From positions 1,555,001-1,619,000 of the forward strand of contig NC_092673.1 of the NCBI RefSeq assembly GCF_964355755.1: a stretch of 64,000 bases of DNA, given 5' to 3'. The notes below the pieces were generated by a model that worked only from the letters and a program-made list of their open reading frames with translations, had not been told where the DNA came from and ran no database searches. Of this stretch, positions 20,501-40,625 are shown piece after piece (position 1 is the first letter of the stretch; every line of letters starts with the position of its first letter). Source of the DNA: Antedon mediterranea (Eukaryota > Echinodermata > Crinoidea > Comatulida > Antedonidae). Made by a program: the position numbers and the translations under genes.

Positions 20501-23500
20501 TGTGTACACTGTAAGATTATATAACCTGCTGGCTAGTTTTGTTCCAAAGTACTTGATATTATAGTGAAACATTTTTTTTATAGTTGAAATTTTATTAGGA
20601 AATTTAAATAAAATGCACTTTAAATATAAAAATGGATTTTTGAATGAAAACTTTAATAGTATCCTTTTACTAACATGTTTGATGGAATAAAGTATTTTTT
20701 TTAAATAAGTAAAAACAGTTGCATACTGTACAGTTGAGATCCCAGGTTTTGGAAAGAGTAGAGGCTTTTATTTTGATAAATAATTCTATGTAGTTAAGTT
20801 CTTCTGGGGCCCCAAACATATCATGTTATGGTGACTCTGTTGCTTTTGGAGTCCCAGGACATTTTTGATGTCGAATAAATAAAGTGAAAATGAAATGCTT
20901 TAGTGGTAGTGTTCGGTGTATTTTATCTTGTTAGGTGATCATTTAGAATAAAATGATCACCTATTGTTATTGTACAAAATCTTTATTGTTATTATTATTC
21001 TTCTTTCTGTACACTTTTTGTTCGTCAAATATCTCAAAAAGTTGAATAGCAATGATCACAAAAATTTCACAATGTCTTTCAAATATTTTAACTTAGCCAT
21101 AATAAGCTTTTCAGCGTGATCACTCATCCGTGGCGTCACGTATACGCCATTTTGTGAAATCACATTATCAATCATATATCCATAATTTATTATCACATAT
21201 TTACAAAATTCACTACACGTAAACTTCAGGTCAAGGGTAAAAATATTAGCAAGTAAAAATGCGCGCGCACGTAGGGTCATGCGTGTGGAATCGCGCAGTA
21301 AAAATTTAAAAAGCTCAAAATTACGTTTTAATCAATTTAGAGCATGAATTAGGCCATTTGCGTGTTTCAAAAAACTACTGCGCAAAAAAAATATTTTGCG
21401 CGCGCGATACTTACAAAGCGTAAAAATTGCAATTTTTTTATACAAATCGCGTTCTACTCACCATCCTTAGTACATTCACCAAATTTGAGTAAGTTCCGAC
21501 TGAAAATAACGCTATACGAGCAGGTTAAAAATAACAAAATGCGCAAATTAATTGCATCAAAGTGCTGAAAATGGTGAAAAATAAGGCCTTTTTAAAATGA
21601 ATATAACTCTTCAGAATGGCAGGTGACCCCCAATTTTTTTAACTTATTCGGGAAGCCATTGGGTTGTAGATACATATTCATGTACACATTAGACGTACAA
21701 AATGGTATGACGTCATCAAATGGCCACTTCAATTTAAAAATTAGTAATTTTTATCTTTTTGTGTGGGTTATCACATTCAATAGAGCGCATCTCCGTTATT
21801 TGAGCCCGATTTTCGCCGAAATTTTAGTATGTGCTTGCTCAATTAATTATCTTTCTCAAGAGTTGTCAACATTTTTATTTTGATGACGTCATCATGTGTA
21901 AAAACTTTAATAACCAAGGTCGAGTAATTTCAGCTACACCATACATTTGAATATGTTATAGCTCTTCAGAATTAAAGGTGACCTTGAAGATTATAATTTA
22001 TTATGAAAGCTGATTAAATGTAGATATGAATTCATATAAAAATTAAGCCTATCGGATGTTGTGATGTTATCATATGGCCAGTTGAAGTTAAAACGTTGTT
22101 TTTAAATTTCTTTAGTCAAAGTTATACAAATTTCAAAGAGCGCGCATTGCGCTTCTACGTGTCAAATTATCTTCCAATCCTTATATTTATTTGCTCAATT
22201 CATTATCTTTCGAAATTGTCATCTTCGAGTTTATTTTGACAATTCCATCATACCAAACAATTTGAACATTATGTGGGTCCCGTAATTTCACCTATGCTAC
22301 ACTGTATATAGATATACAGTATATACTGTACATATTGTATATGACACATAATAGGCACAACTCCGCACTATAAGCGTATAACAGGATGGTATACATCAAC
22401 ATTTTCCTATTGTATGTTAACGTACGTGCATGTTTAAAAAATATTAATGTAAGTAAAGCGATAAAAATGATCACCTATAATTCGTCAAAGTGACGAATTA
22501 AATTCTAGTTTTTATGTTAAATTTATACATTTTTTTTTTTACTTTTAGCATCCTCGGCAGCCTGAAATGGAGCTAATATCAGAACGGCCGACACCGTTTC
22601 ACCATGTGCATTCCATACAGCACACGCATACGTTAAATCAGTCCGCTCCTATGCATCATGTAATTCCTGATAGTATGATACGAAATCCCACGGCAGATGT
22701 ACTGCATATGGTAAATTGCTATTTATATATTTTTTCCAATAACACCAGTAATAATAGGAACGACATTTAAAGACAATAATTTACCCAAGATATATTTTAA
22801 CGAAAAGAAAGATAATTTATTTGTCTAGCAATAATATTTGATAATGTGAAAAATAACCACTGACCAATATAATGATCCATACTGTCAATGTAGTCCCTTT
22901 TGAATAATGTTTACATCCTTTTACTTATTGTTATTTTTACCTCTCACTCTCATACTACCACCTCATTGGGATTGCACGGGGCTATTTTTAATGTTAAAAA
23001 TTATATTTTGTGATACGAAAAAAAAGATATCCGTGCGAACGTTTGAATGTATTTAAAGTTGATAGATTTATTTTGCCATTGGTCATTGAACTTGAAATAA
23101 GTGCATTTCATATGCCGTGATTCGGTAAGCTATAAATGAAATCCACATTGATTTTGAATACACTTTCAATATAATTTAATTTACTTCAATTTAGTAAGAA
23201 GCGAAAAGTCTGTATATAAAATAGATACAGTATTCAGACAGATTTAATATACAAAATAATTATCTAATTAAATAAACATTATATTTTAGATACTTTTTTT
23301 TTTTGCAAAGAAAGTTTAAACATTGATGTTGTTGATGTGTTTATTGATTATTGATTATTGATTAATAAGGATTTTTTTTACCTATAGCATCCAAGACTTA
23401 GTCGACCAAATCTCCCCCCTAGAAGGCAGATAAGGGGAATGTGGCGCAACCCTCCAGTACCCCCACTTCTCCTCCATTACATGTAAGTAATGCATGAATG

Positions 23501-40625: not shown

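Follow-up and report, generated by a model that had tools for sequence, protein, structure and literature searches.

Helitron2 elements are defined, in the cited passages of Bao and Jurka (2013, PMC3627910), by paired end repeats like those reported here; these passages also describe compensatory mutations in two related Helitron2 elements and propose that the 5' hairpin is lost, and the end point determined, when the asymmetric terminal inverted repeats (ATIRs) pair. Our observation of matched arms is a rediscovery of this published Helitron2/Helentron end hallmark. In comparison with Helitron2 as presented in those passages, the elements described below terminate in CTAG at the 3' side, a sequence compatible with the canonical CTRR as well, and occur as several arm sets and in nested arrays within one genome. 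They resemble the Helentrons and HINEs of Thomas et al. (2014, PMC4067079), for which the passages cited name a RepHel with an endonuclease, OTU proteases, subTIRs (some of them palindromic), a 3' palindrome, TT insertion and border Ts, and in which Helentron families are named by their subTIR.

Two further systems are close. DINE-1, according to the cited parts of Yang and Barbash (2008, PMC2374699), has 13-bp subTIRs that differ between species and inserts at TT, and the stem of its 3' stem-loop likewise differs between species; one type is given per species, with the exception of D. willistoni (three), whereas several sets coexist here. FoHeli1 and FoHeli2, in the passages cited from Chellapan et al. 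(2016, PMC5148889), have a 5' hairpin and an inverted repeat near the 3' hairpin, and their arm letters differ from each other as they do between our sets. The first 31–85 nt are repeated at the 5' end of FoHeli1/2, for which self-insertion was suggested; several 5' ends occur there with a single 3' end, in contrast to the equal numbers of ends, in balanced order, of the one array read whole here. For three tandem copies in Metarhizium acridum, the same passages left open whether they arose by insertion at the 5' end or by rolling-circle replication. Among the open-access titles and abstracts listed and the passages cited, no report of balanced nested Helentron arrays or of a fixed landing position was found, and the 31–85-nt repeats (PMC5148889) are the nearest parallel among them.

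Two elements of this kind are present in the window, i.e. the whole 64,000-nucleotide stretch of Antedon mediterranea DNA analysed here (Table 1). The plan of the element would be T-(5' hairpin)...(3' ATIR)(3' hairpin)-CTAGT, with insertion at T|T and no duplication of the target site. Here the first arm of the 5' hairpin is taken as the 5' ATIR, and the 3' ATIR is the complement of that arm, which immediately precedes the 3' hairpin. In copy 1 the 5' hairpin is AGGTGATCATTT-AGAATA-AAATGATCACCT, with an outer T/A pair at 20932/20963, and the 3' arm lies within a 15-nt exact direct repeat (AAAATGATCACCTAT); in copy 2 the longest direct repeat between the hairpin and the 3' arm is 10 nt, exact. 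Neither T-rich tract carries an insertion, and for one nested insertion elsewhere (L068) the uninterrupted relative is copy 1 itself. The sequence-only reading had started copy 2 at 37405, about 6 bp too far to the left, and had called the two copies similar along their length, which applies to 688 bp in the 3' half (70%) and to short patches elsewhere but not to the remainder. It was right that the 5' arms of the two copies are unrelated, that each 3' arm equals its own 5' arm (exactly, over 13 nt in copy 1 and 10 nt in copy 2), and that CTAG follows the 3' hairpin in both.

Table 1. Features of the two window copies (positions in the window)
Feature	Position	Strand	Remark
Copy 1, non-autonomous Helentron/Helitron2-type element, arm set T1	20932..22509	+	T...CTAGT borders placed from nested insertions among other copies
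Copy 1, 5' hairpin (5' ATIR and complement)	20933..20962	+	sequence read
Copy 1, T-rich tract inside the 5' hairpin	20963..21022	+	landing position in other copies
Copy 1, 3' ATIR, matching its own 5' hairpin	22465..22477	+	AAATGATCACCTA
Copy 1, 3' terminal hairpin	22478..22500	+	sequence read
Copy 1, 3' end CTAG(T)	22505..22509 (CTAG 22505-22508)	+	sequence read
Copy 2, non-autonomous Helentron/Helitron2-type element, arm set T2	37410..38993	+	sequence read
Copy 2, 5' hairpin (5' ATIR and complement)	37411..37435	+	AGTTATCCGC-ACTTG-GCGGATAACT
Copy 2, T-rich tract inside the 5' hairpin	37436..37500	+	landing site in other copies
Copy 2, 3' ATIR, matching its own 5' hairpin	38952..38961	+	GCGGATAACT
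Copy 2, 3' terminal hairpin	38962..38982	+	sequence read
Copy 2, 3' end CTAG(T)	38989..38993 (CTAG 38989-38992)	+	sequence read

Both window copies have asymmetric terminal inverted repeats (5' terminal, 3' subterminal) and hairpins at both ends, and insertion in T|T without target-site duplication was observed through nested insertions in other copies. A canonical Helitron1, which starts with 5'-TC, lacks a 5' hairpin and inserts at A|T, was considered and rejected, as the elements have a 5' hairpin, a T(A/G) start and a T|T target; the agreement is limited to the CTRR-like CTAG and the 3' hairpin. Taken together, the elements are very probably non-autonomous Helentrons with matched ends that insert at T|T, would be mobilised in trans by RepHel proteins and nest at a T-rich tract. 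Following the model of Bao and Jurka, pairing of the 3' ATIR with the 5' ATIR would open the 5' hairpin and set the rolling-circle end point. Since a functional element would need a matched pair, an arm that differs between subfamilies is expected to differ at both ends.

Searches of the genome (354 Mb, 18 contigs) identified five arm classes. T1 (TAGGTGATCATTT) occurs at about 637 places (637 forward and 636 reverse matches with up to 3 mismatches, taken as the same places), and exact arms were found at 1094 places for T2 (AGTTATCCGC), 983 for T3 (GGTTATCCGC, a one-base variant of T2), 548 for T4 (AGGTTATATGC) and 223 for T5 (TACTTGGCCAA). The hairpin patterns of T2 to T5 are palindromic, so that their forward and reverse counts refer to the same places. 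A further, imperfect T3 head (5' end) gave 322 forward and 345 reverse matches (up to 2 mismatches). The outermost hairpin pair of T2/T3 is A..T at 1094 and G..C at 983 places and mismatched at 10, and the two form one set with a covarying outer pair.

The 3' hairpin had been described as conserved, and this holds for classes T1 to T4, with loop variants, but not for T5, which has a different hairpin (TCGCGC-TAT-GCGCGA, then CTAG); the five T5 tails (3' ends) in L023 read TTGGCCAAGTA (four) and TTAGCCAAGTA (one). The copy-2-type 3' hairpin followed by CTAGT has 1705 matches in the genome (up to 2 mismatches) and 0 in the reversed control, and since the arm match also recurs in other sets, it is not due to chance. 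An arm-blind scan gave 90 matches in the reversed control, and therefore only its T5 matches, confirmed by reading, were used. Two T4 heads with a GAAAA loop (L046 and L047, at C1:10007833 and C1:10532882) share a common left flank, TCATATTTCT, and thus either were amplified along with outside DNA or have another border.

The sequence-only reading had proposed comparing the two ends across genomic copies. We examined 68 stretches (40 picked by head, the others by tail, for their position next to RepHel or as arrays) and assigned every tail to the most recently opened head of the same strand. Head and tail belonged to the same arm class in 64 of the 65 pairs, which came from 41 stretches and left 17 tails without an open head; before a 13-pair array was added, the figure was 51 of 52. 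Shuffling the tails 2000 times gave a mean of 21.5 class matches and a maximum of 34. The arms thus match within copies, as that reading had it, and its view that the 5' and 3' arms form a matched set, with different sets defining subfamilies, is supported. The sole mismatched pair, a T2 head with a T3 tail, encloses a RepHel locus (locus A, see below) over 34 kb. Another apparent mismatch of this type, in L048, was discarded, as two intervening T3 heads explain it.

Under the strict parser, 29 of the 40 head-picked stretches gave at least one pair. Of the others, i) four (L029, L053, L060 and L067) had no tail read, ii) L032 has its T2 tail on the other strand, through a reverse insertion, iii) L033 has a T1 head containing a T3 tail of which the hairpin is degenerate, iv) L035 has a T1 3' arm that has lost its 3' hairpin through a deletion, and v) L044 to L047 were too short or on the wrong side. 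Other bracket rules also scored high, with 40 of 52 for first-in-first-out and a mean of 43.6 (maximum 51, 300 draws) for a random open head, because 46 of the 52 pairs are adjacent. When nesting was tested by class, 5 of 6 enclosing pairs matched, and the 13-pair array added 8 enclosing pairs, all T3 with T3. Since copies inherit their set, the 64 pairs are not 64 events; the independent set changes are about four, a handful. For the Helitron2 pairing model, such co-variation amounts to a natural experiment, with several unrelated matched sets in this genome, the majority of which have a near-constant 3' end.

At the element borders, TT precedes 74 of 76 heads and AT the other two, and a T follows CTAG in all 69 tails (54 TT, 7 TC, 6 TA and 2 TG). 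An uninterrupted relative was found in the fetched DNA, by gapped alignment, for 24 of 50 joined junctions, including 14 of 15 nested ones (9 continuing in the host body and 5 in another stacked head). Eight of the 24 relatives are without two T at the junction, and in the remaining ones the tract length differs otherwise. Since one relative, that of L070, has a single T at the site (CTAGTGAG), the element is best written as T(A/G)...CTAGT at T|N, with no duplication. On the basis of the nested insertions rather than the window flanks, both outer borders should be moved outwards by one T, to T...CTAGT. For window copies 1 and 2, no empty sites were found with the joined flanks (160 + 160 bp for each copy), which beyond their own places matched only partial repeats, none spanning the junction. 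The left flank of copy 1 contains a repeat of about 125 bp (window 20773-20897) that ends about 35 bp before the insertion point and occurs at 38 further places among the matches listed. In the right flank of copy 2, window 39009-39139 is part of a dispersed repeat with 1780 candidates at first look and, among the matches listed, 36 further places at 78–84%.

The genome contains 87 matches to Helitron_like_N, fragments and other groups included. An open frame of 3086 aa at locus A has predicted Herpes_teg_N, OTU, DUF6570, Helitron_like_N, PIF1 and Exo_endo_phos domains, by which this locus is a Helentron, and at loci B and C the alignment extends from the 5' hairpin through the RepHel frame. 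T2/T3 heads start elements encoding Rep and helicase; relatives with Rep, helicase and endonuclease thus carry the same kind of 5' end, in agreement with the earlier description of the copies as rolling-circle-like. In each of the loci examined (A, B and C), RepHel runs against the head-to-CTAG direction. Other elements of this kind with a reversed RepHel have been described, one of them (D. ananassae) in the cited passages on Helentrons and HINEs (PMC4067079). At locus A, 31 kb separate the head from the next T2 tail. Elements B and C have a long minisatellite on their 3' side (about 343 bp in B; L012 6379-10000 and L014), a possible source of satellite DNA.

The head nearest to the RepHel gene is T2/T3 in L015, L016 and L025-L027, and the T1 or T4 heads of L015 and L016 lie outside the T2/T3 heads. 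T5 heads lie beside the RepHel gene in L022 and L023, and none of the known heads was found beside RepHel in L017-L021 and L024. The T5 heads are next to a different RepHel group (C1:6990729 and C8:12197999; 112 and 114 bits), an association by proximity only, compared with about 129–136 bits for the T2/T3 loci. No RepHel with T1 or T4 heads was found in 13 stretches beside RepHel genes and two C3 stretches, of which C3:24123500-24127500 contains nested T1/T2 elements and C3:24143900-24147300 gave nothing. The search for an autonomous relative with the same ends thus gave candidates, with the same kind of 5' end, for T2/T3 and no partner for T1 or T4 in these stretches. The proteins mobilising the elements in trans would most likely be Helentron RepHel-endonucleases encoded in this genome. 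A separate group of five stronger Helitron_like_N matches (185–196 bits, frames of 402–1452 aa) was also observed, at C7:8918426, C1:19630172, C5:12374108, C2:33471476 and C1:29681497.

Elements are also stacked within one another. The 20-kb array at C1:919602-939900, read whole, contains 13 heads and 13 tails, with no tail on the other strand; its bracket depth is never negative and returns to zero at the end, and the classes match in all 13 pairs (12 T3 pairs and one T2 element within the stack). Since 13 heads and 13 tails placed at random are balanced in 1 of 14 cases, the continuity of the hosts is the stronger evidence for nesting. Of 82 tails read, 80 have at least 80 bp of following sequence, consisting of a new head within 16 bp in 18 (14 of them at +2, CTAGT|T), a host body in the same orientation in 29, a reverse host body in 1 (L032) and other DNA in 32. 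The interrupted host resumes at position 26–84 in 29 of 30 cases, i.e. in the T-rich tract inside the 5' hairpin, with the two lowest positions (26 and 42) obtained by extrapolation, the underlying alignments starting some 41 bases further inwards. In favour of a preferred landing position, the share of TT sites at positions 26–90 is only 5–18% in five example elements; the share of TTTT sites there is 3–37%, and the one element with 37% counts against it. As some of the arrays were picked as arrays, these counts do not give the share of copies in arrays.

T1 and T4 hosts take T2 or T3 elements at the tract (L015, L016, L068 and L070), in L068, L069 and L070 the arm classes are interleaved last-in-first-out, and the stack of T5 elements in L023 is organised in the same way, around a TTTG-rich tract. 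Landing is not confined to the tract, since in L032 (C1:2510680-2512430) a T2 element is inserted in reverse in the middle of a T1 body, at about position 1104. Opposed heads less than 200 bp apart were also found, at C1:3166283-3166575. The orientation is nearly always the same, a predominance rather than an absolute rule. In the arrays read, copies have entered the T-rich tract of a resident element, or the place directly after its CTAGT, and so given rise to nested head-to-tail arrays.

The arrays could instead be rolling-circle concatemers, formed when the terminator is bypassed, or products of unequal crossing-over. Bypass of Helitron termination is described in the cited passages of PMC4067079, aborted rolling circles are attributed to Xiong et al. 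in those of a review (PMC12628747), and the arrays among the matches listed have a near-constant step of about 1.5 kb. We consider this origin unlikely, as heads and tails are equal in number (13 and 13) and balanced in the array read whole, the classes are interleaved last-in-first-out in L068, L069 and L070, and each interrupted host continues with its own sequence; in the longer arrays, some units may come from crossing-over. In the arrays read, the evidence favours nested insertion over rolling-circle concatemers.

It is likewise rather improbable that the arms match merely by common descent from a few founders, with no ongoing selection or mechanism. Both arms are inherited within a set and the independent set changes are few, as such descent would have it, but there are at least four unrelated sets, three of them with most of the 3' end in common, and in each the founder must already have had matching arms. 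A further argument against it is the outermost base of the hairpin, which is matched at 2077 places and mismatched at 10, although this comparison bears on the 5' hairpin rather than on the agreement between the 5' and 3' ends, and T2 and T3 could each represent a single lineage. A cut-and-paste transposon of the MITE type, with short inverted repeats in subterminal position and duplication of a TT target, is the most doubtful of the alternatives and can hardly be correct. DINE-1 was formerly read in this way (cited passages of PMC2374699), and a TT duplication would also produce the eight relatives without two T at the junction; it would not explain the single T in the L070 relative. In addition, the ends are asymmetric, with the 5' arm terminal and the 3' arm internal, before a second hairpin, and the same kind of 5' end begins RepHel-encoding elements.

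For this genome, the balanced array addresses the question left open for Metarhizium acridum. Relative orders of insertion can be read from it, and it illustrates how a transposon can turn into a satellite-like array. A tentative further proposal, to which we give somewhat less than an even chance, is that the T-rich tract is a self-landing pad, with insertion directed to the 5' end of a resident element of any arm set, mostly in the same orientation. The same orientation would then nearly always result from the need for T|T to be on the T-rich strand, and RepHel bound at the resident 5' hairpin, or single-stranded DNA extruded there, may guide the insertion. If this proposal is true, each array would be a last-in-first-out record of insertion order, and satellite-like arrays could be built without rolling-circle concatemers.

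Other repeats were observed in the window. Palindromic units with CATATCACTACCATATTTGGGCA recur in it, and minisatellites that leave several reading frames open, on one strand or on both, are present at 14571-15213, 19354-19956 and 41228-43390. A stretch near 43390 that by eye resembles an EF-hand runs into the minisatellite.
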